DNA of 64,000 nucleotides from positions 468,532 to 532,531 of the forward strand of contig JAALGZ010000028.1 of the NCBI GenBank assembly GCA_015227615.1, read 5' to 3'. Positions 8,222 through 57,741 of the stretch are shown here, in pieces; positions within the stretch are counted from its first letter, which is position 1; each line of letters starts with the position of its first letter. Both the position numbers and the translations under genes were made by a program. Below the pieces are notes generated by a model. The model did no database searches. It had not been told where the DNA came from and saw only the letters and a program-made list of their open reading frames with translations. Source of the DNA: Labyrinthula sp. Ha. Its lineage: Eukaryota > Sar > Bigyra > Labyrinthulida > Labyrinthulaceae.

Positions 8222-10690
8222 ATGAAAGCTGCTGCGTTTGGGCGGGTTCAGAGATGGATACTCACCATCCAAGAATTCGTCACGGTGTTTCATCATCTTC
8301 CAGGAGAGACTAATGTTCTGGCGGATCTGTTGACGAGGTGGGGGAATGAGGAGTCAGAGGACACGTTAAACTTGAAGGCTATGCTGGTAGATAACAATGG
8401 GGATATGGGTTGGAGAATTAGATGGAAAGGGATAACATTCTTTGCAAATAGTGGAGACGTTGATGTTGAAAAGATGGAGATTGCTAATATGATTGATGGA
8501 CCCGAAAGTGAAGAGGTATTGGAAGTAGAAGTAAATAAGGGCTATAGTTGGAGGTTTGATCCAGAAGTAGTAAAGTTTGTGGAAAATAGAGTTGCTGTTC
8601 ATTTCCCTAAAAGAAAGCAGGAAATGAAGATTTTTACAATTCCAGAGATAGTGAAAGTCCAAGAAGCATGTGAATTAAACTTGAAGGATTTGGATGCATC
8701 TCAAAATGAATCAGGGGCCTGGATCAATAAGCAAGGAAAAATAATTATACCTGGAGAGTTGATTGAACAATTCATCGTTACTGCTCATAATGCTTCAGGA
8801 CATGGCAGTGTGGATGAAGTTATGCGTATTTTAGATCCTTTTTTTTTCGTCAGTATACCTAGGAATAAATAAAAAATCTTAGTACAAAATCTAAAGAAAT
8901 GGTGCTTGCATTGTGATAAAGATATAAAAATGATCCGTAGACCTTTGGGGGAAATATATCATCCTATAAAAGGAGAGGTGGTGCTACATCTAGATTTTTT
9001 GAAGGTAAAGGAATCGTACATCTTGGTTATATTGGAAGATGTGTCAAGAAAAGTGTTGTTGATTGAAGATCCCAGTCCATGCGCAGCTGTAGTTGTAAGG
9101 GCGTTGGTAATGTGGAGGGGATTAATAGGATTGCCACCCACATTCACTTTGGTATCGGACAATGGTTCTCATTTTAACAACGAAGTGTTAAAAACCTTTG
9201 AGTCACGATTTCCAGCTGAACATAAACTTTCAATAGTATATAGCCCTTGGAGTAACGGATCAATCGAAGCAATGAATAGGTTTGTTCTCCGAGTTCTTCG
9301 CCAGCTGTATAGTTGCTACATGATTGAAAAGGAAAAGTGGAGTGAATTATTACCCCAAGTGATGAATGTCATAAATAACAGCCGTTCGCGTCATGGGTAT
9401 TCTCCAAATGAGCTAACCAAATATTTATCTACTGCAAGAGGGTTGAATAAAATAGTAGAAACTGATAAAACAAGCATCTTGCTAATAGTGACTCAGGGGA
9501 AACTTAGAGAATGTAAGGATTCTGGGAAGTTCAAGTCAGCTGTAGAAAAGTTGATGTAAATAATTTTGAATAGGAGAAATATAGTAGAGCCTATCATTAA
9601 AGAAAGCAGAGACAGGTCAAGAAGATATATCAATGCTAAATTCAGATCATCGAGTGTAAATTTTGCAGCTGGAGATTTTGTATTGATATCTAGAGTAGGT
9701 ACACCGTGGTTAAATGATAAAATAAGTTTAAGATGGATTGGACCATATATAGTAGTAGCGGTTGAAGGTGAACATTGTTATAGGATGAAATCCGTTGGAG
9801 GTAAGGAGCAAGTAGTTCATTCGCAACGAATGGCTCTGTATCAGTCAAAATCTGAAGACTTTAAGGTAACCTCAGAAATAAAACATAGTTTTTATTATAA
9901 TCAGGGACCTTATTATGTGAAAAAGCTGCTAGATTTGAGAAACACAATAGATGGATTTGAGGTGTTGATTTGGTGGCAAGGATTTTCAAAAAGTGATTCA
10001 AATTGGCAATGCATGCGTAGACTCTACGAGGATGTGCCCCAATTGGTGAAAGAGTTTGTAAGGAAAAATAAAGATGATACCGTAGATTTTGAGAATGCTC
10101 ATAAATTGATCAGAGAATGGGAAAGAAGTAAAGGTAGTAAAGAAGTAAATATGATTGCAGAAAGTGTAAATAATGTACCTAAAAATATCTGGCTGAAAGA
10201 AAGGATAAAAATAATTAAATATCCAAGTAGAATAACATCGATGTCGGAAGGGGTGTCAGAAGGTTTAAGTAGATCTAAAGGTTGGTCGTTAGCAGAAAAG
10301 ATAGTATTTGAAAAGTTGAGTTTGAAATTTGGAATAGGAAATTGGAAAGAAATATGCTCACTAAGTTGCCTTCCTGGGAAAAGTAAGTCTCAAATGGTAA
10401 CTCAATTGCAGGCATCGTTAGGTAGTCAATCGATCGGGGTATATAGAATATTGAAAGTAAAGTTTGAGAAGATCAAAGAATATAATGATAGTTTGAAGAA
10501 TGTTTATAGACGTAATGGAATTATTGTGCGAACTGGAAAAGAGATATCAACATCTGAATTAAATAAGGAAAAAGAATTTTATAAGGAAAATTTTGAGGTG
10601 CAAAGTAATAGAAATCATATTGAAATTCCAGTTTTGAATGTAGCAGATGTAAACAATCCACGTATTAATCTTCAGGATATAAAAAGATGA
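8222..10690 (+). pseudogene. pol: T1 RNase H end, integrase, chromodomain and SANT-like domain
   Basis: One frame throughout, interrupted by TAA at 8870-8872 and 9557-9559. It starts with the end of RNase H (NVLADLLTRWG). The HHCC zinc-binding region follows (HNASGHG...CLHCDKD), then the integrase core: Asp in HLDFLKV, Asp in VSDNGSHF, Glu in NGSIEAMNR. The last ORF, 9566-10690 (374 aa), has a GPY/F module (LRWIGPYIVV), a chromodomain at about 9911-10065 (YYVKKLLDLR...WWQGFSKSDSNW), and at about 10270-10440 a SANT/Myb-like segment (GWSLAEKIV...GNWKEI...LPGKSKSQ). The chromodomain would target integration to chromatin marks. The ORF ends at TGA 10688-10690, overlapping the ATG of the next ORF. 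Confidence 0.8.
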
Positions 10691-11961
10691 TAAACTTTAT
10701 AAAGAATTTCAAAATAGAAAAGGAGTTTAAAGAATCGGTGAATCATATTGAAGATAATGCAGTAGAAGTAACTTGGCCAAAGGATAGTTTTAGATCAAAA
10801 ATCGGGAATAAGTGGTATAAGGTGTTGCTTGACAGCGGAGCGGGGATCAGCTGTATAAGAATTAATGTGATATCTTCATCTGAATTGCAAGTTAAGGGGG
10901 AAGAGTTGGTAAAGTTAAGTAATGTATACAGTGTAAGTGGGAGAAAATTAGAAATAATGGGGTATGTTTGGATGGAGATTAAATTGATACATCCTAGGGT
11001 AAAACTGAACTTGGGAAAGGTGTGTTTATATGTGCTAAAGAGATCAATGAATAAAATAATAATAGGAGAGAAAGTTTTGAAAAAATATAAATTGAGACCG
11101 GTAGATATATTGATGGGGAGAAGTAGTAAAGTTGATTTTGAAGTAAATGCTCTTGAGAATGATTTGAGAGATAAATGTTTGAAAGAGTGGGAGGATTTGT
11201 ATAAGAATGAATTAAATAAAAAGGAAGAAAGAAAAAAGTATAGAAGATCGTTTTCGGAATATTTGAAGAATAATAATAATTGCTTTGATGGAGTTCGAGT
11301 AGGTGAAATTAGGGATAATTTGTATAAGTTGGATGATTTTGAAAAGGTGGGAGAACAGTGTTTTGTTGTTTGGAAGCAACCTGAAAGAAGTAGATATATG
11401 GTTTCGGATGTGTTGAAGTTGAATTTGAAGGTAGTAGGTGAATATGATATTGTTTTACTTGATCCTGCTTGGGATGATGGAGTGTCGTCTAATCCAACAA
11501 GGGGGTTGTCAATAACTTATCCAACAATTAAAGTAGACCAAGTGAAGCAGATCCCCGTTAATAAGCTCTGTCCTGTTGTAGTTGTAGCTTTGTGGGTGAC
11601 AAATTTGAAGTTGCAGGAGGGAATCGATATTTTGAAAATTTGGGGATGTCGTTTAGTTGAAGTAGTGGTATGGGTAAAAAAGACCAGTAGCGGAAAACTT
11701 TGGCACTCACACGGACAGTTCTTGCGGCATAATAAAGAGATATTGCTGTTGTCAGTCAAGGGAAAATCCTTTTTATCTAAATCAAGAAGTGGAGATGTAA
11801 TAATGAGTAAAGTTCGTCAACAAAGTAGGAAGCCAGATGAGGTTTATCAACTGCTTGAAAGACTAAATCCTGGCGCTAAATATTTGGAATTATTTGGGAG
11901 AAGATGGAATTGTCGTGAGGATTGGTGTACTATCGGTTTAGATGGAGCATCGAGCTTATAA
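10687..11961 (+). CDS. T1 retropepsin fused to MT-A70 adenine methyltransferase
   Basis: 424 aa, open from ATG 10687 to TAA. The ATG overlaps the upstream TGA as ATGA. Residues about 40-140 are a retroviral-type aspartic protease: VLLDSGAGISCI with the catalytic Asp at residue 49 (10831-10845), and IIIGEKVLKKYKL near its end. Residues about 250-420 are an MT-A70 methyltransferase of METTL3 type: LLDPAW at residue 259 (11461) in the DPPW position, then YPTI, VVALWVTN, VVWVKK, a GQFLRHNKEILLL stretch, SRKPDEVYQLLERLNPGAKYLELFGR and W-C-T-I-G-L. The Pro-to-Ala change in DPPW may weaken catalysis. MT-A70 enzymes transfer methyl from S-adenosylmethionine to adenine N6 in RNA or DNA. Retropepsin placed 3' of integrase and fused to a methyltransferase is not the usual Ty3 layout. 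Confidence 0.85.
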   Translation: MINFIKNFKIEKEFKESVNHIEDNAVEVTWPKDSFRSKIGNKWYKVLLDSGAGISCIRINVISSSELQVKGEELVKLSNVYSVSGRKLEIMGYVWMEIKLIHPRVKLNLGKVCLYVLKRSMNKIIIGEKVLKKYKLRPVDILMGRSSKVDFEVNALENDLRDKCLKEWEDLYKNELNKKEERKKYRRSFSEYLKNNNNCFDGVRVGEIRDNLYKLDDFEKVGEQCFVVWKQPERSRYMVSDVLKLNLKVVGEYDIVLLDPAWDDGVSSNPTRGLSITYPTIKVDQVKQIPVNKLCPVVVVALWVTNLKLQEGIDILKIWGCRLVEVVVWVKKTSSGKLWHSHGQFLRHNKEILLLSVKGKSFLSKSRSGDVIMSKVRQQSRKPDEVYQLLERLNPGAKYLELFGRRWNCREDWCTIGLDGASSL

Positions 11962-11970: not shown

Positions 11971-12407
11971 TGTTGAAATAAGTTAGTTTTGTTTTGTAAA
12001 TATACGAGAAAGAGCTGATGTTCTGACATCTAGTGATTGAAATATAAAGATAGATGTAAGTTGAGTGGATGAGATATATTCGAACCTTTGTTGAGAGCCA
12101 AGTGGAGCTCTTATGGGAAAATATAAGCTTGTTTAGACTTAAGAGAAATGGTCGTTATTAGAAATATAAAATCGGTGGTAATATCATATTGGAAGTTAAC
12201 GGAAGAGAAAAATGTGATGACGTGGTTTGGTGGAATACAGTTTCAGTGATGATCGAACACGAACTGTAGTTTGCTGAATATAGTTTTTAATAAGTTTTTT
12301 AAGCCTTAAGTAATCGATAGAAGAAGTTTACAATAGTTTTAAGAAACCAAGAAGAAAAGGAGAAAATAAAAATTATAAGTTTAAATTGAGAACTAGACGT
12401 ACTCAAT
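11971..12407 (+). repeat. T1 3' LTR
   Basis: Partner of 4669-5105, starting TGTTGAAATA and ending ACTCAAT. It is preceded by the purine run AAAGAAAGCAG and followed by the target duplication ATTTG. Confidence 0.9.
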
Positions 12408-19108: not shown

Positions 19109-19131
19109 TCACTATTTTGCAAAATATGAAG

Positions 19132-19667
19132 TGTTACGATAAGGTTTCAGCTCCTAGAGTTGCTATGGGGAGTTATAAAGTGATATGAAACATTTTGGAA
19201 AGTTTCGAAGCGATTTCGGGTTGAAGTCTTAGTTTTCGGTGCGATATTGTATTTTTGATTTTCAGAATGATGTGATATGCGTGATATCTGATGTAAAAAT
19301 TTCCGGGGTTTTGATGTGGGAAATTTTACATTAACGTGATATTTGAGATTATGTGAGCCTTGATTTTCGATACCTATTTTCAATAATTTGTAAGATATAG
19401 AATATATCTGCGATATCAAGGGAAATTTTTACCTATAAATAACGGAGCTTATTAGAAACAGTGGATTTGGATAACAGTCATATTGAAAAATCGACGCTAT
19501 TCCAACAACTTTGATAAAGATATAATTGTTTTTTGTTAACCATTAAGATATAAAGAAGAAAAAAATTGAAACTTGCAACAAGTTTTCTCAAGGAAGAATA
19601 CAAAAAACCTGTCAGATTTCCGGGACGTCTTAAAGCAGATTTATTAAATTTAGATGATAAACGCAAT
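19132..19667 (+). repeat. T2 5' LTR
   Basis: Partner of 26065-26601. It contains a TATA-like TATAAATA at 19434-19441, also present in the 3' copy. At its inner edge is an inverted repeat CAATATT-TT-AATATTG (about 19664-19679). Confidence 0.8.
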
Positions 19668-19804
19668 ATTTTAATATTGTGAATTTAGTTTGACGGAAGC
19701 CTGAGTATATTTTGGGGAGATTTTTGTGAGGATTTTGAGAAGAATTTAAGATAATTCTTGATAAATTTATTTTAAAAGATATGAGTGAGGAGAGGTAGCT
19801 TAAT

Positions 19805-21716: not shown

Positions 21717-22910
21717 ATGCAAAAAAAGTTACCTTTAGGTCAAGAGCAGGAAGATTATTTGCACCAGAGAATAGATCATATGTTGAAGACAGGAATTATC
21801 CTTCTGAATAAAAGTTTAACAACTGCTATGTCATTGTCGGTAATTCCTAAAAAGAGACCGAAAAGGTTTAGGCTAGTTGTAGGTTCTAGACCATTGAACC
21901 GTCTAATCCAGAAGGCTGATAATATGCTTCCGAGAATTGAACTTTAGCTACACAGAGTTATAGAAAACGGGTGGTTTTCTGGTTTTGATTTACTTAGTGG
22001 GTTTAATTATCTGGCTTGTGAAAACAAGCAGCAGAATATTTTACTTTTACAACCCCTCCTAGAGGATGGTTTATTCTTTTTTAGGAGTGCCTCACGGTTG
22101 ATGCAATACAGCTATTTATTTTCAATGCATCAGATTGGTGAGGTGTCTAAGCCAATAGGGCTATGGCCACGTAAAGTTCTACAGTGGGCCGATGACTCCG
22201 TAATCATGGGGGATACTGTAGACGAGCTTTATAATAACTTAGAAAAAATTTTAAATCAGAGTAGAAGCAGAAAATTACATTTGCTTATTGATAAGTTCGA
22301 ATCAGTAGCGATTAGTTTAACATTTTGTGGTGGAAGTTTTGATGCAGACGGTTGGAAGTTTGATATTCAGTATTCATAGAGTTTATTGGGCAGATTTGAG
22401 CCTGTATATTTACACGATTTAGCTCGGTTGATTTACACAGCGAACTTTATTTCTGAGACATCACCCGGATTTTCAAGATTAAAAAAAACTGTTATAGGTT
22501 CTCATGAAATAGGAGGAAAGATGAAGAATTTAGAGGGAAGGAAAATAAAAATCATGTGGGATGAAGATATGTATAAAGCCTATAAAGAGATGATGAAAGC
22601 TATTGAGCAAAGTATAAAGTGTTCAATAGGATATTATGACCCAGAGCAGATTTTATATTTTTTACAGATGCCAGCAATTATTTTTATGTATTTTATATAA
22701 CCCAGAGCGGAGAAGATGTGGATATTTTTGGTATATTTAAGTCAGAGCTTAGAGTGATTACTTTGAATTCAGGAAGTTTTAGTGGATCGCAACTCAGGTG
22801 GCTTATTTCATGTAAAGAGTGGTTTCCGGCTCTCATGGCTATTAAGAAGTACCCATTTTATCTAATATTTAATGCGAAGAAAAAATTCTTTTTACTGATA
22901 ATAAGAACTT
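21717..22910 (+). pseudogene. pol: T2 reverse transcriptase and RNase H remnants
   Basis: Broken frames show RT motifs in order: HMLKTGIIL, FRLVVGSRPLNRL, FSGFDLLSGFNYLA, and the catalytic QWADDSVI at about 22180-22205 with both Asp present. Thumb and connection follow (FDADGWKFDIQYS, DLARLIYTANF). Downstream pieces near 22700-22910 fall where RNase H should be but are hard to recognise. Confidence 0.65.
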
Positions 22911-23045: not shown

Positions 23046-24424
23046 TTGTTTATCCAGTTGGTTGAACCTAAATACAGATACGAGGTAGAAGAGTTACTAA
23101 TTCAACAAGCAATATTAGAAACTGGAGACAGAAATAAAGGGTTGGAGTCTTGGAACTATATAGATGAGATGCATGTATCTCCTCGAAACCCAGGAAGTTT
23201 AGATTTATCTGAAAAGAATCTTGAAATAGTGGACAAAATATTAGTGTAGATATTGAACCAGAGAGAAGATTCAGCCTTGAATAAAATAAAGATGAAAGAA
23301 GATAATATCTTCGTGCTGAAAACTGTAATACCATTGATCAAAATGCACACCCATTTTATTTTCAGTTATGCGTCTATAAAAAAAGGAAATGAATTTAACA
23401 AAACCAGATAATTGTTTTGAGAAGGATAACATAGAGTTGTTGAAGAAAGCAATTGATTTATTCCATAGACAATGTTTGCATTGCCAGTGTCCAAGTTTAG
23501 TGATCCGTCGACCATTATATGTGACAGCATGAGGAAGTAAAGCGGGGGGTTGCTTTCTGACTTTATATATATAAATACCAAAGAATGGGTACTAACCTTG
23601 GTTGATTCATTAACCAGGACTACTATTTTGCGGTATTGTGGCGAAGCCAATAGAGATAAACTGGCTGGCATTATTTTGGATTTGAATGCTCACTTTAAAC
23701 TTTTGCCGGTATTTACTTTCGTTATAAACAGAGGATCACAATTTACTTCTATAGTAGTTGAGAGGTTCTTATAACAATCTGGATGTCAACAAAAATTCAC
23801 TGATACTTAGCTGAGTCACACAGCTGGTGCAGTTCAGGTTTAGAATAAGAATGTCTTGAGACATCTGAGATCAATCGTGAGTGAATTTGATTTAGAAAAT
23901 TGAGAATGACTGGATGTACGTTCAATGCTACAAGCTTTTATGAATCAAAATCTTTTGCCGTGTTGAGGCACGAATTTAAGTCATTTAAAATCGATGATTG
24001 GTGTAAAAGATGGGAAGTTTCCACTAGGTGCAGTCTATAAAGAGATGGAGAAAAAAAGACTATAATAACTTTTAGAAAGTAGCACTAGATTTGAGGAAGA
24101 ACATTGAAGAGTTACAGTGAAAAAGCTAGTACATGTGGTTTAGAATATAGGATGTGGTATAATTTGAGAAGAAATAAAAACAAGAGCCTTAAGCCAATAT
24201 TCTTTGGAGAAGGTGAGTTAGTGTGGCTTTCAGAAAAGGAATCTGGGGAAGTGAGACGTGACAAGTTAATACCTAGAAAGTGTGGGCCGTACCAAGTTAC
24301 AAAATGCATAAGTAAACATTTATATGAGATCCAAGATGTAAATGGAAAGAAGAAGATAAGACATTCAATATTGTTAGCGCCTTTTGCACCTGCGGTGGTT
24401 TGCCAACTCCTGAAACTTCACTGA
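23046..24424 (+). pseudogene. pol: T2 integrase and GPY module remnants
   Basis: A Cys-rich CLHCQCPSL segment near 23475-23500 marks the end of the zinc-binding region. 23550-23774 carries the integrase core with LSDFIYINTKEWVLTLVDS (first Asp) and VINRGSQFTS where VTDNGSHF is expected, so the second catalytic Asp is lost. 24104-24424 has the GPY module (RKCGPYQVTKCISKHLYEI). The frame is broken several times. Confidence 0.6.
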
Positions 24425-24436
24425 TATATATATAGG

Positions 24437-24660
24437 ATGGATAAAGAAAAGTTGGAAATTAAAAAACTATCGGAGTTAGTAAAGGATGATAAACGGCAGT
24501 CGAAGTTTTTGTGTAGTTGAAAAGATTTTCAAAAAGTGACAATATTATTGAGCCAGCGTTGACTTTTTGGAAGATTTACCTTTTTTGGTGATTCAATTTT
24601 GTAGAGATAATCCATTCATTGAGACAGTGCAGTTAGTGATTTTTTACTGTTTATCCTAAC
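24437..24660 (+). pseudogene. T2 chromodomain remnant
   Basis: Combining frames, the order IKKLSELV...LCS..KDFQKV (or QKSDN)...FLEDLPFLVIQF resembles the chromodomains of T1 and T3 and follows the GPY module directly. At least one frameshift and one stop. Confidence 0.4.
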
Positions 24661-25148
24661 TCAGAATATTTTAAGCATATTGAAAAGCAAAGGAAGATTT
24701 TTGCTATTAATGAAGATGAGATAACAAGTTTTTGCGGAGAAGTTGATATAGGAAAAAGTAATCATTGATGTAAAAGGAATATGAAATAGATTGAATTGGT
24801 CTACCTTTGAGTTTCAGTCTTTGAGAATATGTATTATGAGTAGAGGGTTTGGAGATTTCAGGGAGTTGAAGAAGTTTGATCCGAGAAAAGTAAGCAGCAT
24901 ATTTACACTCGCCTTCAGAGACCTGTGGGAAAATGGAGTTAAAATGTTTACCATAGATTACATTTAGATTTAATGCAGTTGAAAAGAGATAATACTAGAT
25001 TTAGATGTAATTTTTATTTTCTCCAAAAGAAACTCATGAAGGAAAATCTAAAAATATTTTGGAATTGTGAATTTAAATGAAGATATAAGAAGTCAATTGA
25101 AAAAAAAAACAAAAGAAGCTTGGAAAAAGATTTTTAGAGGTACATGAA

Positions 25149-26038
25149 ATGACTTTTAGTGAAGAAGTTGAAAAGTTATTTCGAAAATTAAATAGAGATA
25201 AAGCAAATTCATGGAAAGTAGTTCCAAGATGTAATGGTAAGAAAGATGAGTTCAGGCAACATCTTAAGTTGTTTTGGGCTGATTTAAAGAAAAGAGAAAA
25301 GGAAGTAGAAGATGAACTATGTAAAGCTAGTTTTATCATGACAAAAATAAACAAATTTGCTGTTGCGGACGAAAATTGTGTATTTACAGACAGTGGAACT
25401 AATAATTTAATTGAGGAGGAAAATAGGAAGTTGAATTTTATTGGTTATTTATGGAAGGTACCAGAGGATGCAGATTATCTTAATGGAAGAGTGCGAGATT
25501 TTTATTAAGTGTTGAGGATCCGTATGATGTTATTGTAGCGGACCCACCATGGGAAACATTTTCAGATTATCCAGTATGGGGTCCTGCTGTAGATTACAGA
25601 GTAATGACAGATTCTAAAATAGCGGTGTTGAATCTAAGACCGGTGATGAATAAAGGTATGGTTTCTGTTTGGATTATTAGAAGAAAATAACAAGCAGTGG
25701 ACCATATGTTTACCTTGAATAACATTAGAAACTTGGGCCGTGTTGTTTGCGTAAAGACTGATGGAAAGAATAAGGTTGTTTCGACGCTTGGCAATGTTAC
25801 TATGTGGTGTACAGAAGAATTCCTTATTGATATTTATGGCTTGTTTCTTAGCAAGTTAAAACGTCGTACATTTGGCAAAGAAATATTATATGGAAAATGA
25901 AATCAAAATACTCAAAAACCTGATGAATTTTACAAGTTAATTGAAGAAGATTTTGAACAAGGCACTAGGATGTTAGAAATATTTGGGAGGAAGAACAATT
26001 CGAAGTCAAATTGGATGGTTGTAGGCGATGAACTTTAA
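25149..26038 (+). pseudogene. T2 MT-A70 methyltransferase with intact DPPW
   Basis: 25149-25508 (119 aa) is a charged region equivalent to the part upstream of the methyltransferase in T1 and T3. After a frameshift, VIVADPPWETF (D at 25541) gives an intact DPPW catalytic motif. It is followed by MVSVWIIR, VVCVKTDG, and QKPDEFYKLIEEDFEQGTRMLEIFGRKNNSKSNW at about 25912-26020, a clear MT-A70 C-terminus. Stops at about 25688 and 25898 break it. The catalytic motif is retained although much of the element is degenerate. Confidence 0.7.
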
Positions 26039-26064
26039 CTACTTTAGCTGAAAGGGCGGTGTAG

Positions 26065-26601
26065 TGTTATGATAAACTTTCAGCTCGTAGAGGTGTTATA
26101 GAGTGTTATAAAACGATATAAAACATTCTTGAAAGTTTTTAAGAAATTTCAGGTTGTAGTCTTAGTTTTCGGTGCGATATTGTATTTTTGATTCTCAGAA
26201 TGATGTGATATACGTGATGTCCGATGTAAAATTTTCCGGGGTTTTAATGTGGGAATTTTTGCATTAACGTAATATTTGAGATTATGCAAACCTTGATTTC
26301 CAATACCTAGTTTCAATAATTTGCGAGATATGGAATATATTTGTCATATCAAGGGAAATTTTTACCTATAAATAACGGAGCTTATTGGAAACAGTGGATT
26401 TGGATAATAGTGTTATTGGAAAACCAACGCTATTCCAACAACTTTGATATAGGTACAATAGTTTTTTGTTAACCGTCTAGATATAAAGAAAAAAAAATTT
26501 GAAACTTACAACAAGTTTTTTTCAAGGAAGAATAAAAAGAACCTGTCAGATTTTTGGAACGTCTTAAAGCGGATTAATTAAATTTAGATGACAAACTCAA
26601 T
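26065..26601 (+). repeat. T2 3' LTR
   Basis: Partner of 19132-19667; TATAAATA at 26367-26374. Starts directly after the polypurine-like stretch. Confidence 0.8.
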
Positions 26602-26741
26602 ATAAGATATATGTGGAATTATTTCGTTTTGTGCAAAGTGATTAACAGTATCCTTAAAAATTTGTTCTTCTTCTACAAGATATTGAAGAGGAAGTGGTGA
26701 AAAACTAAATCTACGTAGATGATTTAATGATGTTTTGATTT

Positions 26742-39087: not shown

Positions 39088-40599
39088 CAGCTCGAATGTT
39101 ATATCATTCCTTTGTTTATTAGTTCTAGCCTCTAAGCATTAACTGTTGTACTTATAGTTTCATCATTATCCTGAACTGTTCATATGTCATCTGTTGTTGA
39201 ACCTGTTGACTCTTCGTATTCATGTTGAGCAATAATCCAATCCAGAATTTTCTCGAATGTCACGACCCAGATGAAAAAAATATTAATAAGTATTTTCTTT
39301 CCTTCCTGGCCTTTTCTTTTGAGTAATGATCTAACCTCCTGTCATGTTTAACCCTATTTCTAAGGTCGTCATCAAGTAACTAGGTGCTAAAACTAGGTTG
39401 CTCTGAATATTTGGCTCTAACCTCACTGGCACAACGGGTGCTATTTATATTAGTTGTCGTGCCTCAAGATCGACGGGAGCTATTAACATTATTCTATAGA
39501 AGCTTCTATCTCCCATGTTCAATAACTCGGTCGAGAGTTCTCTCGTTTATACCCTTGTAAACCTAATTTTTTCATCCTTATTCTTCGCATGGGTTCCCTA
39601 CCTCGACAACATATCAGCAAAATTATCACTCTTATTGTCGAGATTTTAGAGTTCCGCCTGAGCCTGTTGTAACGTCAGAAACAACCCTTGGACCTATTAA
39701 GATATCCATGGGCAATGCTATAACCTCCTTCTACAATAATTCTGAGAATCATGTGATCCCTATATACTTTAATTAGAGAAGGATGGCATGGCAGCAACTA
39801 TGAAGACCTTCTAAATATGTTCGGTCTGAAGTATTGTCTCCTTTTAAAGATCCCTCGTCTCTGCTGATCCACTGAAAATTGCCGGAAAGGAACTTCATGG
39901 GATACATCTTCTTTTACAAGGGGTTGTTCCTTTCTACGAACTCAGCTTGAAAAATTATGATACTATTGTACTAATTTCTCGCAATAGTTACCAAAATTGT
40001 ACCCTCTCTCGGTTATAAGTTTTTATCTTCTGCTTAGCTGCAACTGATATAATCATTTTTAACTCCTCAAATTCTTTATGAAGCTTATATGACCACCCGG
40101 TTTGTTTATTTTTTTTTTCAGGTCGGACTACTTCCCGTTCATATGCGGATATTTTGCCATGACCCTGTCTCTAAGCTAACCCATGTTATGAAATGCCAAT
40201 GAAAGCTTTGATGCTAAAATCAGCACTGACGCAAGTTGTTATACAAACTCCAGCCTTGGAATACCAAGTATCATCTCATAATACTTCTTGTTAAAATTCC
40301 ATCTTCCCCCTTCTATTTGCCTACTGCAATAACTTATCTTGGTTGAGAATATAATAGATTTTTTGAGGAGGGGGGGTTGATTCTTACCCTTACCTCTCTT
40401 CTGCTGCCGAAGAATCATCTGAGTACATTAAGAAAAATGTTGAAGGTGTCGGTATAGATAAAGCTATCATAAATCCACTGAATGAGTTCATGACGTTTTC
40501 TTACTTCTACTTCTCTGTCAGTCGCGTGCTTTACCTTTTTTGCAGAAGAAGACTGGGGTCAAACGGTATTCCATTGGCGCAAAATTTAAATGATAATTT

Positions 40600-43500
40600 C
40601 CATGTTTGGAAACTATTCTAAAATATCTCATAGACTTTTTTTTTGATGACTAGCTAATGAAATCTAGACACATCATCAAACGAAGTGTAAAACTTACTTT
40701 TTGCGAAATTCTCAAAGCCCTTTTCCAAAAAAGAGTAGCAGATGAACCTACCGGGGCAACAAGTTGTTGGGTTCTACTGAATCAAGTATTATCATATTTT
40801 TTAGCTTTTTTAGTAATGACAATGTCTAATGAGTCAAACTAAGTAGCTGGTACTTATTTCAAGATACTTCTTTTATCTACGCTGATAAAATTTTCCTTAA
40901 TAACTCTGCTCCTCTCAAAGAAGTAAACCTATCCTTTGGGTACTTGGATTTTTATTTATCTAACATCAATATTGGCACAGGTTCTAGCTCACTAATGCGG
41001 CTTTGAGGGCAGTCAGTCATAAACAAATCGCCATATTCTAAGCATATGACCTCCAGCATTTTTCATATCCCTCAATGCATCACCAGCTCTGGAGACCATG
41101 GTTGGTACTACCGTGTTAATCTACATTGGTTTCAAGGTAAATTGTAGTGACGGATCCAGATTATTAAAGAGCTGTAATATCAAGACTGCTGATCCGGATA
41201 TATTATCCAGAATATCATAAATTTTTGTTCCGTTTATGGAAACAAAAATACATTAAAAACTGTCCACGATGCTATTAAATTGAGAATATGTGGCCTTAGT
41301 TCTGAGTCTTGCATTCGTGCTGATGTTACAATCGATTGTATATTAATACACGTTGGGTTCTTACGTTGTGGTCTCATCAACTCTTCGATGACTGTTTCAT
41401 GATGCTTCGTAAATCGAGTTCATCCGATACCAAAAATATAACAAAACAAATAATGATTACAGATACAGGTCCATCTGTTATCTGTATTTTATGATTTATA
41501 AAGTTGAATTAAATTATAAACCCTAAGATATTTTTTTATGCAGATAGGACAGAAAACTAAAATATAACTGTTTTTTTTCATTTTACAAAAAAAACCTATT
41601 TGTTTTTATTCAATGAGTGTTGAAAGCAACACTTTTTATTTATTTGTCAGTTACAGTTTTTTCTTTTATATTTTTTTTTGATTTGGTTTGATCCCAAAAC
41701 TTTAATATGGAATTTATCTTGCCTAAATAAAAATATTGGCTTGCCGAGGCAGAAAAGGAGAGTTATTTTGGGAAATAGAAAAAAACAAAACGAAAGAAAA
41801 AGAAGTATTCTGTCTTGTTGAGATGACGTAAAAAGAGGTACCAGAGCATACTCTGGAATAGAATTTTATCCACGTACAACATATATTTAGGAATTAGAAA
41901 GACGTTTTCAAGTGTCTATAATACTAGTCTTTATGTTTTTGAAAATTAGGTTATCAACAGTTAAGTATAACAGTACCTAACAAATATATTTTGTTTCAGA
42001 TGAAAAAGACTGTACTACAACATAGTATACATATGGTGTGCACTAATATCTAAAACGGGAGAACAAAGGGTTGTCACAAGGCATAAATATTATACAATCT
42101 ATTGCATAATATCAGAGGAGGAAAACTTGAAAAGTTAAATGAAAGCGTAGAAACTCTTTCAGGTGTCAATCTAACATTATAATCGCGAGTAACTATTGTT
42201 CCTAAGAAATTAAACTGCGAGCCTATAGACTCTTAAAATATATATATATTGCTTTTAATATATCTTCTAAAAACTCTTGTGTCCTAGATTATACATGCTG
42301 GTATCCCAGAAAATAAGTGGGTATTTGTTAAAAGAATTTGAGCATCATCTACCAAGCTATAATAAGAAAGTATTAGAGATAATAGAAACTGCTCCTACAA
42401 ATATAGCTTCATTTCAAACCTTTTTTAACAACTTCTCTTTGGGATTTTTCTGACGGAGTTGAAAGATCATTATGCTTTACTTAATTTTATTCACTGAAAA
42501 CCCCTCTCTAAGAAGCTCAAGTGATTCTTTCATCATGAAAGAAGATTCTACCCAATAATAATTGTTCATGTCGGTTATTCATAATATGCCTCTCTATGAT
42601 TAGACTGTGGAATAAGTATATTAGTCTGTTAATACCTGGAGACGCTACATTAGAAAAAGAGCAATCTCAAAAATTCCCTAACTCATAATAGGAAGAACTT
42701 GTTTGATAATATCTTTTTGGACACTGTACTAGAGTATTATCCTTAGAACTTTTTATTCTAAATAAACGTAAAATGTTAAAAAATCAGTTCAAATCAGCGT
42801 ATTACAAAACATATTCTAGAAATAGAGATGTTGATTGTAGGCATAAAATGAGAACATTGTTTTTAACAAGTAGTTTTCTTAGTAGAAAAAGAATATCTAA
42901 ACTCACAGCTAGACACTTAGATCATACTTTAGTATTTTCGTTTAGTATTTTTGTTTTTTATAGAAGGTAAACGCTAACAACACTCTAAACAGTGACTACT
43001 ATTCATCTTATTTAACAAGAAAGATTCATTAGCTTGTATTTTTGTACCTTTGATTTCATCTGCAAAAAATCTGCAGAGAAAGATAATACATTGAAATCTC
43101 TATGGAAAAGACTTTATATTGCTGAAAATTTTACCGATAACTCAGGAATCACAAGCCTAATTGATAACCTAGCACTTTTTAACTCAATATTAAATTTGAA
43201 AAGGTTAATATGTCTTATTAAATACTATTTTTTCAATATTCTGGTTTCCTGAATTCGGCTATTATCTGTGATTCTTTAGGAGTAAAAGATTCCGCCCTCT
43301 TAATCCACTGATTGTAAAAAGGAGATTAGATATCATAATACAGGGAGTTGTTCTTATTCAAGTGCTTATCAATCATTTATATTAATTTGTGACTAAATCA
43401 GTGTAAAATCTCTAAAAAAACTCGCGAAACTTTGAGAGAACGACTGAGCTAAATATAATTGTTCACTTCGTTGTGTCCTTCTGTTTTATTTCTTAGATTA

Positions 43501-50711: not shown

Positions 50712-50842
50712 TGATTTAAGCCGTTGCTGTTTATGTAGCTCATTGTTATTGTACGTTAGAGAGTTTTTTATATAAGCAATAAATTGATATAAAAGAGACA
50801 CAAAATTAAAAGCTTATTGAAAGACCCTTTGGACTATAAATC
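50712..50842 (+). repeat. T3 5' LTR with TATA box
   Basis: Starts TGATTTAAGCC and ends CTATAAATC. TATAAAAG at 50788-50795, conserved in the 3' LTR, is a likely TATA box. An inverted repeat ATAAA-TC-TTTAT (50836-50847) straddles the LTR/interior junction. At 131 bp it is short for a Ty3-type LTR. Confidence 0.9.
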
Positions 50843-50976: not shown

Positions 50977-52706
50977 GTGTCCCTGTCACTAAGAAGGAAA
51001 AGAAAATCTATAAGAGTTCACAAGAAGAAAATAATGGAGCAAGAAGACACCCAGAATCCGGAAGATAGCTTGCATTCACTCCCGAGACAAACATCAGGAC
51101 CTTCGTCCCCGACCTCTCCTAGGGACGATGCACAGTTTCAAAGATACTTTTTACAGCCGCATCCAGCCCGATTATGCTACCCCCGTTTCTACGCTCTCTG
51201 AAACCAGAAGATGTGATATCCTTCCTTCACAATTTCCATAATGCTGATACTGCGGTCAGGATTAGTGATGGACAAGCTCTGAGTTTCCGGCCGTATATTG
51301 ATGGAAGAGTGATTAGAAAACTCAAAGAAGCGAAGGGATACAGCACCTCTGCTGAAATCCTGAAGGAGCTGAACAGCATAGTGGAAGATTATGATCGTAA
51401 CAAGAAAGAGGATGCTCTTCACATCCTGGACAGCAAACTGGCGTGGGATCTAACGGAGCCTACGGAAGAAAGAAGAGTAAACGCTTACATCGACACAGTA
51501 CTGGAAATCATGAATGTGGGCGACTTAAAGAACGACAAGAAAATGGAAACCGAAGCAGTCAAGCTAGCGCTCAAGAATCTACCCAGCAAATATGAATTGG
51601 TACCTTCGGATCACGATAGGCTTAAGAGTCTGCTAGCTAATGCAAGGGCCAAGATACTATCTCCAGATGAAATTGAACTACTAGAAGCCGGAGAAAAAAA
51701 TATGAAGGGAAAACGAGGTGTTCCAGTCACTCACAAAAAGATCAACAACTTGAAGAAGCTCCTTATTTACAAAGCATCTGTGTTAAAGGATACCAAGAGT
51801 GAAGCAGAGGATCTTCATGGATTGGACAGGACCAAGAATAAAACCGTTTTAAGGGTAGCTGATGGATTAGCTCATAACACAGCTGAGCAACTTATGGCTA
51901 CTCTTGCGAACCTATTATCACCTAAAGCAACCATATCATCTACACATAGTTACGTTAACGCAGTCAGAAATACACAAGGCACGACAATCTCTGCTTCAAA
52001 CGCGTTGGATCTTAATAGCCCGCTAAAAGGTCAAGGAAATTCATCAGTTAACATCGTGTGCTACTTCTGCGGCGGTGATGGACACCGTGTAAGTGAATGT
52101 ATGACTTTGAAAAATATAAAAATGGAAAGAGCTGCGAAGGGCCTCTCCCCGGCCTATGTTCCAAGATTTAACAGAAGACAAGGAGACAGAGGATACACAA
52201 ACAATAGAAAACCCAATTTTAAATCTCCAGTCAAAGAGCGTTGCAGCCTGCCGGATATTATGATCAAGAACTTCGATGGAATGAAGGGAGCAAGGCTAAA
52301 CTCACAGAAAGCCCAGTTCAAACTGTTTTCTCCAGACATCAAGTGGATACCACTCAAAGGAGCTTTGGACTCTGGCGCTGGAATGACAGTAGGTGGGGTC
52401 AAGGCCCATGAAAACTTCTGCACAAACTTAGAAACGCTGAGAAACGATAGGCACGTTGTACTTCCCAACGGATCGCGCATCCCAGTATCGATGCAAGAAT
52501 ATGTAGAAGCTCCTGCAAAACATGGAAGAGGCAAGGTTAATACATTCAACCGATTGAGGGTGTTTCTTTTAGATTTAGACGACTGGGATTGGTTTCTTAT
52601 AGGTTTCCCGGAACTAGCTGCACTACAGGCCACCACCGATCAAGTACTCGCTCAGGTAGCCGTGATGCCTAAACCATCGTTGAGAGATTATATGAACAAC
52701 AAGTAG
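50977..52706 (+). pseudogene. gag: T3 Gag and retropepsin, one frameshift
   Basis: The N-terminus (50977-51198; MEQEDTQNPED..., Ser/Pro-rich) is in another frame than the rest; the two overlap near 51174, indicating a single frameshift. From 51174, LRSLKPEDVISFLHNF begins the capsid region, matching LRTLEPSKVASFLEEF of T1. A CCHC knuckle lies at 52059-52100 (C-x2-C-x4-H-x4-C). The retropepsin box LDSGAG is at 52365-52382, with DWFLIGFPEL near its end. TAG at 52704-52706 ends the ORF, but the same frame stays open into RT, so the codon could be a nonsense mutation or a readthrough site. Confidence 0.8.
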
Positions 52707-54239
52707 GATGCAGGCCCGAGGAGGAAGATATACCACGCTTTTCCTTGGGAGCCACCAGACAGCGATGAAACAGCGGGGATAACGATATCGAACACAAAAA
52801 AAACGATCAACTTGCTGAACGATGGCAGCTGGAATATATTTAAAGAAGTTATTCATCCACCTCTGGAAGAATATGATATAACTGAAAGTATTTTTAGCGA
52901 AAAGGCAAAGTCTATCGGAGCTTTTATAATAGAGGAAGATAATTATGAGCCTCAGAACATTTTAGCCATCCGGCCATCAAATGCAATGAAGGAGTTGGAT
53001 CGTCAAGATAAATCCGATGACGAAAAACTAAATAAACTCCAGAAACTAAGCCACTCGGAGGCGGATCCTGTTTTCATTGATTCGATAGAAAGGGATGTCA
53101 ACATACACTTAAAGAAGGAGCAGGGATTTGGTGAGAATATCGGCCTAAGAAGTGAAGAGGAAGAAAAGAAGTTTTTGGAAAAGGATGATCAATACCTACT
53201 TAAAGCTATTGATAACAGAATTCAAGAAATAACTGACCTCGAAGAAGAAAAATGTGCTCTGTTAAAAGGAATCCTGCTAAAGAATAGTAAAGCCTTTGGA
53301 CTGAAATCTTCACCGGCCAGGATGTCAAAGACGGACCCTATTATTTGTTTCCTGATGGATGGGAAGGCCGAAATAATCTCACAGCCGCGTTGGATGGGAC
53401 TTCATAAGATGGAGATCTTAAGGAATAGGCTCAAGTTAATTGTGGATCGCGAACTCATCAGGCCAACGAAAAACCCTATTTATGGCTCTCCAGGATTTTT
53501 AGTTCCTAAACCAGGCAGGCCAGGAGAGCAGAGAATAGTAGTGGATATGAAACTTCTTTACTCGCACACTAGGAAAACACCACTTATAATGCCGAACCTC
53601 GAGAAGCACGTATCTTTTACAAATGGCGCTACTGTCCTTGAATCCTTTGATATCCTTAGCGGGTTTGACTATTTGCCCGTAGCTGAAGACTCCAGGAAAT
53701 ACTTTACGATAGTCACATGTTTCGGGTGTAATGAAATGAGCGGTTTCCCACAGAGTTGAGTGAATAATCCACAGCTTTTCCAAAACAGGATCATGACGGA
53801 TATTTTGAGACCCCTGGACTTGTTTGCTAAAACGTCAAATGGAATCATTCAGTGGATAGATGACACATTACTCTTCTCAGAGAGTTTCGAAAAGTATCTC
53901 TTACTTTTGGATGCTTTCTTAAACAGGTTAATACAGCTGAATCTTAGATTAAACCTCACAAAATACAGTTTCTATAACACTGAAGCTATTTGGTGTGAGA
54001 GAAAAATAAACAGATTCGGTTGGAGGTTCAACAAAAAATATTACAATAAAATATTAAAGACGCCGAGGCCTACCTTTGCACATGAATTGGCCCAGATTTT
54101 GTACCTGTGTAACTGGTTGGGGTCAAGCATACCACGTTTAGCTGAACTTAGAGACTACTTCTCATCAATGATCCCAGCAGAAAGATCGATGAAGGAGCTC
54201 AAGAAAATGAACCTATCTCTGGAATGGAATCCTCAGTAG
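52707..54239 (+). pseudogene. pol: T3 reverse transcriptase
   Basis: Same frame as Gag-Pro. After a charged linker come RELIRPTKNPIYGSPGFLVPKPG, RIVVDMKLL, FDILSGFDYLPV, and the catalytic QWIDDTLLF with both Asp (53853-53864). TGA at 53757-53759 lies in FPQS(stop)VNNPQLFQ and TAG at 54237-54239 follows EWNPQ; each sits where Trp would suit. Apart from these codons the RT is complete. Confidence 0.8.
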
Positions 54240-55226
54240 GAACTCAGATGGGAGAAGCTATTGAAGGAGTTAAATGATGCTTCAAAAAGAAATATGGCGC
54301 AGTATTCAAAAGACATAAACCTTTGTATTTTTATAGATGCTTCTACCAACTTCTGGGCATTCATACTTACGTCTTGTGAAAATGCGAGCCCCGCTGATAA
54401 AAACTGTGAGACGACAGTAGCGGAGCAAATACACTCACCTTTGTTTTTCTTGAGCTGAAGGTTTCAATGACCCCAGTTAGGTTGGTACATTAGCGCCAAG
54501 GAACTTTACCCGCTGGTGCATGTATTTAAACGTCTTCCATATTTGATTCTCGATCAGGATAAGAGGCTAACAGTTTTCACGGATCACCAAAATTTGGTTT
54601 ATATCCTTGGCCCAGAGTGGAATCCAAAGACAGCTTATTTAGACAGACTTTATCGATGGAGTTTATTGTTCCAACAAGTGGATATGACGATACGACATAT
54701 CCCAGGAAAGAAGAATATTTTGGCCGATCTTGTTTCAAGATGGGGTAGCCCTGGATACCCCCAAGACAGGGAGCCTTTGGATTCCGGAAATGAAAACTTT
54801 TTGGGTCTAGTGGCAACTCTTTCCGAAGGATCCTTTGATGAGAAAGAACTAGACAGAGGTAGGATTAATTTTCTCAACCCTTTTTATACTCATAGTTGGG
54901 AAAAGATTAGCTATTCAGATGTGTTAAAAAATCAACAGGATGCAGGTCTAATAATTTCAGATGTACCTAAAGAAGAATTAAAATATGAAAGAGACAGATT
55001 CATCATACCAACCTCTTTGGTAATAAGGTTGGTCCTACACAATCACTTGGCGAATAATCATGCTTCAATTAAAGAAGAGGAAAGGACTCTCTCATCGTTC
55101 AAGTTCATCCTCCCCAAGCATACGATAACGTTGGAAGTTATCAAAAGGGTCAGAAATAATTGCATGCATTGCGGAGAAAAGTCAAAGTTGATCAGAAGAA
55201 GTTTAAATATAAGTCCACTTAGCTAA
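54240..55226 (+). pseudogene. pol: T3 RNase H and integrase zinc-binding domain
   Basis: Same frame. RNase H: LCIFIDASTNFWAF (about 54321-54362), then two in-frame TGA codons (54456-54458 and 54468-54470, both at likely Trp sites), WYISAKELYPLVHVF, FTDHQNLVYIL and NILADLVSRWG. The integrase HHCC finger follows: HNHLANNHAS...NNCMHCGEKSK (to about 55190). TAA at 55224-55226 interrupts just before the catalytic core. Confidence 0.8.
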
Positions 55227-56648
55227 ATTCCTAGGGAGATCATTCATGTGGATTTTCTCTATATCAATAAATTTACACATTATTTAGTGCTGACTGACAA
55301 CGCGACAAGGAAAATGTATTTAAAGCACTGTACGTCAGACACGGCGGAGGTTGTCGTCACAGCTCTTCTGGAATTTATAAGGAATTTTCAAATACTTCAT
55401 GACTTTACCTTTTATACAGACAATGGCAGTTATTTTGCAGGAAAGCTTTTAGAAGAGATCAGCAAGTTACTCAAGTTTACCAGGAGCTTCTCCGTTCAAT
55501 TCGCTCCTTGGACAAATGAAACAGCTGAAGTAAGCAACTCTAAGATAATTCTTCTAGTCAGAGTTCTGAGAAGTGAATTCAGATTATATGAAGAGGACAT
55601 CGGTAAGTTGACGGGAGTCATTATGAATGTTATTAACAATTCACCTTCCACGATAAAGGCAGGTTATAGCCCAAATGAGTTATTCATGAACACTCGGGTT
55701 CTCAGCGGTGTGGAAATGTTGTTGGATAGAGATACTATTCTAGTGCCAACGAGAGACGAAGTTAGGCAGCCTAAAGATGTCGATAATGTGATAGAGAAGT
55801 GTTTAGAAATAAGGAATTTATGGGAGTCTAAGCTGAATGAAGCTTACGATGTTACCCGACTCAGAAGAATGAAACAGAATAATAGGATGAATGATAAGCC
55901 TAAATCGAATGCACTCCAATTTATGCCTTCAGAATGGGTTTTATGCAGTAAGGCTGGTACACTTGCAGCTAGAGACAAAACTAAGCCTACTTGGATTGGA
56001 CCCTATAAGGTTGTAAAACCTGTTCATCGAAATACGTATCTTATTACAGACTTGCTGGGTAAGGATAGTATAGTCCATGCGTCAAGACTATGGCCATACG
56101 CACCGCCTCAGTTTGTGCCATCGGAACAGGTAATCAAGTTATTTCGGGTAGACAAAGCGGATCTCGAGGTTGAGAAATTATTAGATGTACAATTTGAGCA
56201 GCGCAAATGGTGGATCCTGGTTAAATGGTATGGATTTGAGGAAGCAGACAACTCCTGGGAGCCTTTAAATACTTTAGCTGAGAATATACCTGAGGTAGTG
56301 AAAGATTTTCTTGTAGAAATGAGAACCAGAAATTCAAAAAGAGCTTTAAAGAAATTCTATACGCTGACGAAGAAGAAGAGCAGATCTAACATAAATGCGT
56401 TATTTGTTGGCAACCCAAACTACCCGACTCAGTCTCCGGGATGGTTAACAATAGAGAAGCAAATTCTTAGAATTTTAATAGCAATTCACGGATGTGAAAA
56501 TTGGAGTGAAATAATGTCAGAGGACGCTTTACCTGGTAAGAATAAGCAACAACTGATCAGCCAGGCCCAGAAGATTTTGTTTCGTCAGGCCATGATCTCT
56601 TATAAAGGTATACATTTGGATATATATAGGGTCGGCAAAGCAAAATGA
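55227..56648 (+). CDS. pol: T3 integrase core, GPY module, chromodomain and SANT-like domain
   Basis: 466 open codons from 55248, continuing the upstream frame. Integrase core: Asp in HVDFLYINKF, Asp in YTDNGSYFAG, and Glu in TNETAEVSN. GPY module PTWIGPYKVVKPV at about 55987-56025. Chromodomain at about 56160-56320: DLEVEKLLDVQFEQRKWWILVKWYGFEEADNSW, with the aromatic cage-type residues. Then a SANT/Myb-like segment at about 56430-56600: GWLTIEKQILRILIAIHG, CENWSEI, ALPGKNKQQLISQAQ. It ends at TGA 56646-56648, overlapping an ATG (ATGA) as at the same boundary in T1. The start at 55248 is not a real initiation site. Confidence 0.85.
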   Translation: MPREIIHVDFLYINKFTHYLVLTDNATRKMYLKHCTSDTAEVVVTALLEFIRNFQILHDFTFYTDNGSYFAGKLLEEISKLLKFTRSFSVQFAPWTNETAEVSNSKIILLVRVLRSEFRLYEEDIGKLTGVIMNVINNSPSTIKAGYSPNELFMNTRVLSGVEMLLDRDTILVPTRDEVRQPKDVDNVIEKCLEIRNLWESKLNEAYDVTRLRRMKQNNRMNDKPKSNALQFMPSEWVLCSKAGTLAARDKTKPTWIGPYKVVKPVHRNTYLITDLLGKDSIVHASRLWPYAPPQFVPSEQVIKLFRVDKADLEVEKLLDVQFEQRKWWILVKWYGFEEADNSWEPLNTLAENIPEVVKDFLVEMRTRNSKRALKKFYTLTKKKSRSNINALFVGNPNYPTQSPGWLTIEKQILRILIAIHGCENWSEIMSEDALPGKNKQQLISQAQKILFRQAMISYKGIHLDIYRVGKAK

Positions 56649-57741
56649 TCCTTATCGGGTAATTTTATTATTAACAAGACGCCTTACTTTGATCGATGGA
56701 AGTTATTAAGATGGTGTTTCAATGCAATAAAATTTATCCTAGATGATGAGATATTGGCAAACTTAAGAATACCCTTTTTTCAGAAGGTAGAAGGATTTAT
56801 TCACTCGCGAAGTTTTGCGCAATCTCGAGACGATTAAGGAGTTCGATGATTTTTACCCCCACTTGGGATCATTTGAGGAAACACTTTCTTGGATTTGGTT
56901 TGGATACGAAGTTAATGAAGCTTTAAAAGGAGATAATGAACAAGTTATCAATTGGTTTAATAAGAACAAGAAGGATATATTGAAGCGTTTCAAAGACAAC
57001 ATACCGGATGGAACGGATCAGGTGCAGGGTATGGAGATGGATTTTGAACAATTTTGTTTCACCTTTTCTCTTAGGGACACAAGTATTTATGAGGTTGTTG
57101 CTGTGAACGAGCAAGACGTTAGGAGATCTACCTTATATTTTGTTCCCGACAAAGCCAGAGTTTTAAATGCGGATGTCCTACATCCTGACTTCAAGATGCT
57201 ATATAGAGAGTTCATGCCTGTGCTACCTACAGTTGTTATAATAGATCCCCCTTGGAGAATTGGATCAAAAGAGCCTACTCGTGGTGGCTCAATAAACTAT
57301 CACTGTTTTTCTGACAAAGACTTGTTAAAGTTGGACTTTTCGTATTTTCAAGAAAGTGGGTTTTTAATGTTGTGGATCGTCAATTCAAAGAGATATGTCG
57401 CAGAGCAAATGATCGTGAAGAATGGTTACAAAGTGTTGGATACAGTGGTTTGGGTTAAGGTCAGCAAACACAACAAGCTACAAGTTGGGCCAGGTTATTA
57501 TTTGAGGCATGTTTCAGAAATGTTCCTGTTATGTGGAAAAGGTAACTACCGATCAATAATGTCGCATGGTCAGGTGGTAAACGTTATTTTTGAGCAACGT
57601 AAAACTCACTCTAGGAAACCAGATGCTATATATGGGCTGGCTTCGAAGTTGGTACCTGAAGGACCGTATTTGGATGTCTTCGCACGATTCTCCAACGTCC
57701 GCAGCCATTGGAGTTCAATCGGGCTAGAAGTCACTCCATGA
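56645..57741 (+). pseudogene. T3 MT-A70 adenine methyltransferase with intact DPPW
   Basis: The presumed start is the ATG at 56645, overlapping the pol stop. The first 170 bases need two small frame corrections (near 56660 and 56800) to join the long ORF that is open to TGA at 57741. The region 56815-57200 is an uncharacterised helical, charged part (GSFEETLSWIWFGYEV...). The methyltransferase follows: VVIIDPPWRIG with DPPW at 57244-57255, GGSINYHCFSDKDLLKL, GFLMLWIVNS, VDTVVWVKVS, YLRHVSEMFLLCGKG, SRKPDAIYGLASKLVPEGPYLDVFARFSN and HWSSIGLEV. These match the METTL3-type MT-A70 fold in order. All catalytic-motif residues are present. No protease here, unlike the T1 equivalent. Confidence 0.8.

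Follow-up and report, generated by a model that had tools for sequence, protein, structure and literature searches.

Retrotransposons that carry a methyltransferase of their own are already known. The KnitGypsy-Dnmt3, SymbioLINE-Dnmt and SymbioDIRS-Dnmt elements encode eukaryotic DNA methyltransferases under purifying selection, one of them within a Gypsy Pol polyprotein; these are cytosine-C5 enzymes, and the available part of that report mentions no co-captured DNA-binding partner (PMC5890265; the PMC reports are cited throughout for the portions of text available). DIRS elements, which use a tyrosine recombinase, carry an adenine methyltransferase of the Dam type (PMC5890265, PMC6338049), and an orchid Ty3/Gypsy lineage has gained an adenine-methylation enzyme, AlkB, an eraser of N6-methyladenine in RNA (m6A) encoded in an additional open reading frame (ORF), the word MT-A70 not occurring in the text of that paper at hand (PMC9289625). 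Here we describe Ty3-type chromodomain retrotransposons of Labyrinthula sp. Ha in which an MT-A70 methyltransferase (MT) domain and a p1-like domain stand in one polyprotein, the nearest solved relatives of both being found in the AMT1/MTA1 complex with p1 (PDB 7f4l, 7yi8), the ciliate writer of N6-methyladenine in DNA (6mA). The elements were recognized in a stretch of 64,000 nucleotides (contig JAALGZ010000028.1, positions 468,532 to 532,531; G000:C75:468532-532531 in our numbering; GC 33.8%) at a contig end of the 50.8 Mb assembly, hereafter the window.

The reading that we favor, with a probability of about 0.6, is that an old lineage of Ty3-type chromodomain elements took up an AMT1-p1-like 6mA module as a fused part of its polyprotein, where it probably serves to mark the element's own DNA. 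Unlike the AMT1/MTA1-p1 complex, the element unites both parts in one polyprotein that also has a chromodomain, and in one group a protease separates them; unlike the DIRS elements, it combines MT-A70 with an rve integrase (IN); and no C5 cytosine methyltransferase domain was present in the four element polyproteins scanned. The lineage would join the known class of methyltransferase-bearing retrotransposons, distinguished by its predicted AMT1-like writer and p1-like DNA binder. The preliminary description of the window, made from the letters alone, knew of no MT-A70 as a standard Ty3 domain, and no report of MT-A70 in a long terminal repeat (LTR) retrotransposon was found among the papers listed in the literature searched (preprints and most subscription papers were outside its scope).

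A profile scan of the window gave the order reverse transcriptase (RT), IN-chromodomain, p1-like domain and MT-A70 in four elements, T1 to T4, the RT, IN-chromodomain and p1 profiles each being built from five elements. Four elements with MT-A70 after integrase and chromodomain had been claimed, and all four stand: T1 and T3 by Pfam, T2 and T4 by a local MT profile of seven sequences that include T1 and T3, whose own scores with it are high by construction. To these a fifth is added, the decayed T5 on the minus strand (40784-36128), with the same order and a weak MT piece (independent E-value, iE, 0.08). PF05063 scored over its gathering score in T1, T3 and four polyproteins, which bears out the assignment to the MT-A70 family. 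Self-blast of the window delimited LTR pairs for T1 (4668-12410, 95.5% identical), T2 (19127-26603, 87.1%) and T3 (50712-57922, 96.9%, over an LTR of 131 bp only), with MT-A70 before the 3' LTR in each, as described; it revealed no LTR pair for T4.

The arrangement is not peculiar to the window. Five merged searches gave at least 213 MT-A70 places in the genome, host AMT1 included; this census and the p1-MT pairing given below are lower bounds, at most the best 150 candidates having been scored per search (150 of 354 for PF05063) and places outside the PF05063 search having been transcribed by eye. Twenty ten-kb loci around MT-A70 matches were read, loci L001-L050 being drawn from the top of the ranking and not as a random sample. 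Nineteen proved to be Ty3 elements with RT, IN, p1 and MT in order on a single strand, and the twentieth (L037) was the host AMT1 gene, so the domain lies within Ty3 elements at 19 of the 20 loci taken around genome-wide matches. Over all loci examined (T1-T3, L031-L050) the order held in 22 of 23, the sole exception again being L037, an unplanned negative control with MT alone, no RT, IN or p1 profile match and no LTR pair. A single open frame of 2061-2660 aa spans RT to MT in 9 of the 19 element loci; a direct-repeat pair is present at all 19 (17 clear, L044 and L047 ambiguous), and in nine the clear LTR pair is at least 99% identical. Given such LTR pairs and long open frames, the MT-bearing lineage has been active recently, a statement about the lineage that designates no particular copy as functional.

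The remainder of the polyprotein is that of a Ty3-type element. RT, RNase H, integrase (rve) and chromodomain follow in this order in all four polyproteins scanned, and the chromodomain was above the Pfam cut-off in L043, L050 and T3 and below it in T1, L034 and L048 (0.35). To our knowledge Ty3 itself is without p1 and MT-A70 domains. What it shares with L050 is RT-RNaseH-integrase, for which Ty3 Gag-Pol is the top PDB match (7q5b; query residues 5-877, E=8.9e-31). Among 27 LTR-type RT places, chosen by eye for a short match, six lacked a recorded MT in the stretch 2.5-6.5 kb downstream, the domain being either absent or not scored (G000 C110:2055390, C77:1287278, C13:178561, C77:417567, C103:166375 and C10:10539); these could be a module-free sister lineage, or the MT may have gone unscored. 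Two places 7.2 kb apart, G000:C132:835172 and 842412 (L044), have equal MT match scores and look tandem-like.

Trees of RT+IN and of MT were compared for 12 of the 13 elements tried (T1 was dropped on account of its split RT, and T2 was outside the set), and they agreed in their division into two groups and in the close pairs; within the groups the positions of T3, L047 and L048/49 differ or stay open, with no strong support for them in the MT tree. Identity of other MT domains to that of T1 falls to 25%. Purifying selection acts on the MT module: the median dN/dS (ratio of nonsynonymous to synonymous rates) came to 0.22 over 16 pairs of the T1 family and to 0.18 over 11 pairs of the L043 family, the pairs being non-independent, with those of dS <=0.03 excluded and no value for L048/L049 and L050/L046. 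The catalytic motif DP[P/A]W is kept in all 34 distinct element MT domains from the loci (DPPW in 19, DPAW in 15), a set of top-ranking matches, with T2 and T4 outside it. The agreement of the trees, the 19 of 20 loci and a single origin that is not rejected (all element MT domains held together, approximately unbiased (AU) test, p 0.36) sustain the earlier view of an inherited gene of the lineage, not one chance capture.

The MT domain had been called METTL3-like, and this label has to be corrected. Compared with PDB, the T1 and T3 domains found MTA1 best (9e-37, 4e-38), METTL3 next (4e-28, 1e-19) and METTL14 third, and a profile of 16 domains scored 228 bits with MTA1 against 164 with METTL3, 90 with METTL14, 68 with METTL4 and 46 with MTA9; METTL3/14 as nearest kin is rejected on these comparisons. 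The tree is less decisive. In 34 rows, the element domains formed three groups (support 96/92, 100/99 and 89/86) separate from bacterial rows, with AMT1 rows, host AMT1 included, on one side at weak support (67/94). In this phylogeny, of the kind that had been proposed against METTL3, METTL14 and METTL4, a single origin is not rejected, and the choice between a METTL3 and an AMT1 placement is left undecided by the tree. A recent origin from the host's own AMT1 was rejected, because that gene falls in a group with five further AMT1 rows (98/95) to which no element domain belongs. We therefore describe the element MT domain as AMT1-like by similarity and by the company it keeps, leaving its branch open.

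The company consists above all of a Myb-like domain that follows the chromodomain and precedes MT, detected by Pfam in two of four polyproteins (L048 above the cut-off, L050 below). Its top PDB match was p1, the DNA-binding subunit of the Tetrahymena MTA1/AMT1 complex, in all three elements compared (L048 1.4e-9, T1 1.2e-5, T3 1e-8), the runners-up being SNAPc, Myb, telomere-factor or ADA2 proteins (best 1.6e-4, 0.06 and 0.7, respectively). The likeness extends beyond the Myb core in L048 and T3, and the T1 alignment is of the core only, 47 residues; p1 has a later helix-turn-helix part that contacts MTA1 (PMC9852454). A five-element p1 profile gave 69.5 bits with Tetrahymena p1, as against 18.1 with TRF1, 10.7 and 5.9 with two c-Myb repeats (these three control sequences were entered by hand) and 8.6 for the best of 200 shuffles. 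When the genome was queried with the p1 piece (best 150 of 308 candidates scored), at least 117 of the 150 scored p1-like places were followed on their own strand by MT-A70, with 660-1551 bases (median 1155) from start to start; on the opposite strand there were none, and in reverse order one. Among the 33 unpaired places are two likely host p1 genes, which are also the two best-scoring. The element thus seems to have fused a writer and a DNA binder, and because the MT domain is nearer to AMT1/MTA1 than to METTL3 and adjoins a p1-like DNA-binding domain, DNA is the likelier substrate than RNA. The listing in the preliminary description omits the p1-like domain and the place of the T1 protease between p1 and MT.

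The protease itself occupies two positions. It is upstream of RT in T3 and L046 (by motif) and in L050 (Pfam 4.2e-5, motif DLGA), and in T1, L034, L043 (with L039 and L042), L048 and L049 the sole protease motif lies between p1 and MT; proteases of the canonical and the relocated place align as profiles (prob 97, E 5e-11). Since it adjoins MT in this group, the relocated protease might release MT from the rest of the polyprotein.

It is reasonable to ask what methylation background such a module would meet in its host. The host AMT1 (L037) is 58% identical to an AMT1-like protein, at 285 bits versus 140 for the next place, and two p1 candidates, G000:C1:1284467 and C100:136111, are likely cellular genes. 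A METTL3 query had an element as its best match (128 bits, 43%; best 133 of 340 candidates scored) and a METTL14 query the host AMT1 (57 bits, 30%; best 150 of 189), so that no RNA m6A writer is evident in the host, although split or divergent genes could escape such searches. Nanopore mapping of 18 species found robust 6mA only where AMT1 is present, beside nucleosomes bearing trimethylated lysine 4 of histone H3 (H3K4me3), and in a set of 231 eukaryotic genomes and transcriptomes both p1 and p2 were confined to those with AMT1; the same 2025 survey calls the MT-A70 families 'relatively static' and the AMT1 pathway directed at endogenous genes (PMC12695648). Given that robust 6mA is confined to AMT1 species, beside H3K4me3 nucleosomes, and that this host has AMT1, an activating mark on DNA is favored.

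The following course of events may then be proposed. By its sequence the polyprotein carries relatives of two components of the DNA 6mA pathway of eukaryotes, a DNA-binding domain resembling p1 and an MT-A70 enzyme resembling AMT1/MTA1, and since the enzyme is part of the polyprotein it should be packed into the particle with RT and integrase. In the particle, or at a new insertion, the chromodomain and the p1-like domain would hold it on DNA, and it would write 6mA on the element's cDNA or promoter. Since 6mA goes with H3K4me3 and active transcription in AMT1-bearing eukaryotes, the new copy would come to lie in permissive chromatin through the mark, which host AMT1 could then maintain. That the module is in this way a self-encoded epigenetic activator, each new copy bearing or soon receiving 6mA and H3K4me3-type chromatin, escaping silencing and having its mark kept up by host AMT1, is a tentative proposal that we put at somewhat under even odds.

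Several results weigh against a DNA-marking module. MT is less constrained than RT (dN/dS 0.07 and 0.03 in the T1 and L043 families) and IN (0.07 and 0.04). The 15 DPAW motifs, which replace DPPW, are all in domains of T1 type, and EukProt relatives outside the 34 have NPPW (P0002), GPPW (P0009), DPPY (P0012) or DLPF (P0017, P0049). Forcing the element domains and AMT1 into one clade was borderline rejected (AU p 0.048), and joining the element domains with METTL3 was not rejected (AU p 0.17). Finally, transposons were without 6mA enrichment in the species mapped, which speaks against a simple prediction, and the available text of that survey names no comparable element (PMC12695648). As an observation apart, DPAW is fixed in the recently active T1-type family, whose enzyme could be an altered or a partner-type one.

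A rival view, for which the join with METTL3 left unrejected by the tree speaks, is that the domain puts m6A on element RNA, affecting its stability, translation, packaging or sensing. METTL3 does belong to MT-A70, and the orchid Ty3 lineage has a working RNA m6A eraser (PMC9289625), but the profile is nearer to the DNA enzyme AMT1, a p1-like domain and a chromodomain accompany the MT, and the host searches gave no evident RNA writer with the reservation already made. On balance we consider RNA methylation an unlikely role. Chromodomains, for their part, steer the integration of Ty3-type elements. It could be that the module is mainly non-catalytic, binding host AMT1-complex partners or DNA and either diverting the host's 6mA machinery or steering integration to active, H3K4me3-rich promoters. 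The DPAW domains and the motif losses among EukProt relatives would be in keeping with this, as would the pairing of active with inactive MT-A70 enzymes in MTA1-MTA9 and METTL3-METTL14, and yet DPPW is present in 19 of the 34 domains and the aspartate in all of them, the residue whose replacement in MTA1 (D209A) nearly abolishes activity (PMC9852454). A non-catalytic role appears to us quite unlikely.

Two further explanations carry less weight. Bacteria and phages commonly protect DNA by adenine methylation, and 6mA might likewise shield cDNA against a nuclease or sensor of the host, or the enzyme might be used against rival elements or viruses; a eukaryotic nuclease cutting at adenine sites that lack methylation is not known to us, although no search was made for one. 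Protection of cDNA has been suggested for the Dnmt elements (PMC5890265) and an antiviral use has been suggested as well (PMC6338049), but as an account of the present module a self/non-self mark strikes us as improbable. That the domain is flanking host sequence, a single-copy chance capture or an assembly artefact has a negligible chance of being right. We found no point in its support, beyond the fact that the host owns one AMT1 outside elements, and against it the MT lies within LTR pairs, shares the open frame of RT and IN in 9 of 19 element loci and is common to diverged groups, with p1 pairings as counted above; flanking DNA and chance capture are ruled out by the reading of the 20 loci and the agreeing trees, so that the genome-wide copies do not show a domain that merely flanks the elements.

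Beyond this genome, a search of 5.8 billion proteins with one polyprotein's MT part as query (295 word-sharing candidates) returned a single cluster of polyproteins, a EukProt one with 98% identity across the MT part, which points to the same or a near species; the T3 MT domain returned two EukProt proteins, at 76 and 84%. The MT profile gave 1723 matches in the same proteins, and among the 120 listed were EukProt fragments of these elements, environmental AMT1-like proteins and, by name, bacterial enzymes. Three metagenome proteins, P0014, P0018 and P0019, are diverged MT-A70 proteins that elements of other species may carry; P0019 has DPAW and comes from an 11-kb contig. On viral contigs, the 80 loci kept of 99 relatives included none that matched the RT, IN or p1 profiles and 77 that matched MT; we take these for phage-type MT-A70.

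The features of the five window elements are collected in the table below. The contig is terminated by TTAGGG repeats at 63790-64000 (the last ~200 bases), and T1-T5 thus adjoin a telomere. Target-site duplications (TSD) were sought in T1-T3: T3 has a perfect one of 5 bp on both sides, that of T1 appears only after moving the LTR ends by 1 and 3 bases and could be produced by chance, and T2 has no clear one. All three are damaged by frameshifts or stops. Elsewhere in the window, 17040-18634 (minus) and 59650-61587 (plus) hold related sets of reading frames in a 78% inverted repeat, of which the second contains a Roc-type GTPase domain (Pfam 3.5e-16), and positions 1-300 are identical to 18475-18774. 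The host genome also has 57 actin-family match places, 49 without stops, some being pieces of one gene, which indicates a large actin family.

Table. Parts of elements T1 to T5 in window coordinates (HMM, hidden Markov model, here the local profiles, with iE values)
Feature	Position	Strand	Evidence
T1 5' LTR	4669..5105 (shifted ends; blast pair 4668-5108)	+	self-blast pair 95.5%; candidate TSD ATTTG
T1 gag-side ORF extending into RT	5128..7239	+	703 aa open frame, no Pfam match; gag by position only; RT HMM 7051-7365
T1 RT, frameshift-split	7051..7631	+	HMM 4e-47, 1e-41
T1 integrase + chromodomain	8735..10090	+	HMM 1e-207; Pfam rve 5.6e-6, Chromo 0.0042, both under cut-off
T1 p1-like Myb/homeobox-like domain	10235..10483	+	HMM 7.9e-33; top PDB match p1 of MTA1 complex, E=1.2e-5
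T1 aspartic protease (DSGAG), between p1 and MT	10744..11148	+	motif; profile alignment to proteases of the canonical place (prob 97, E 5e-11)
T1 MT-A70 domain, motif DPAW	11371..11955	+	Pfam 2.9e-34 (ORF 10669-11961)
T1 3' LTR	11971..12407	+	self-blast pair; candidate TSD
T2 5' LTR	19127..19669	+	pair 87.1% identical
T2 RT	21786..22355	+	HMM 5e-46
T2 integrase/chromodomain, two frames	23301..24532	+	HMM 8.5e-49, 3e-30
T2 p1-like domain, two pieces	24770..24993	+	HMM 1.8e-8, 1.1e-8
T2 MT-A70 domain	25502..26035	+	HMM 2e-52
T2 3' LTR	26060..26603	+	self-blast pair
T4 RT remnant	30272..30772	+	HMM 2e-25
T4 integrase/chromodomain remnant	31990..33262	+	HMM 4e-51 plus smaller pieces
T4 p1-like remnant	33450..33653	+	HMM 3e-5
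T4 MT-A70 domain, frameshifted	34323..34873 (two frames, 34323-34439 and 34472-34873)	+	HMM 0.005, 1.8e-16
T5 MT-A70 remnant, weak	36128..36274	-	HMM 0.079, at expected place
T5 p1-like remnant	37221..37406	-	HMM 8e-4
T5 integrase/chromodomain remnants	37572..38805	-	HMM 4e-10 plus smaller pieces
T5 RT remnant	40299..40784	-	HMM 3e-6
T3 5' LTR, 131 bp, ACTGG before it	50712..50842	+	self-blast pair; TSD
T3 gag (zinc knuckle) + aspartic protease, canonical place	51123..52706	+	zf-CCHC 6.5e-4, just under cut-off; LDSGAG at residue 415
T3 RT	53451..54023	+	HMM 2e-49
T3 integrase + chromodomain	54993..56324	+	HMM 3e-103; Pfam rve 3.9e-8, Chromo 1e-6, both over cut-off
T3 p1-like domain	56427..56624	+	HMM 2e-18; top PDB match p1, E=1e-8
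T3 MT-A70 domain, motif DPPW	57142..57738	+	Pfam 6.6e-31 (ORF 56791-57741)
T3 3' LTR, ACTGG after it	57792..57922	+	self-blast pair; TSD

While retrotransposons with cytosine or Dam-type methyltransferases were already known, in Labyrinthula sp. Ha it is an AMT1-type enzyme, joined by a p1-like domain, that has turned into a mobile selfish gene present in many copies. Should the enzyme be active, the lineage would provide a natural test of whether 6mA causes permissive chromatin or merely follows it, through the comparison of young copies, old copies and catalytic mutants.

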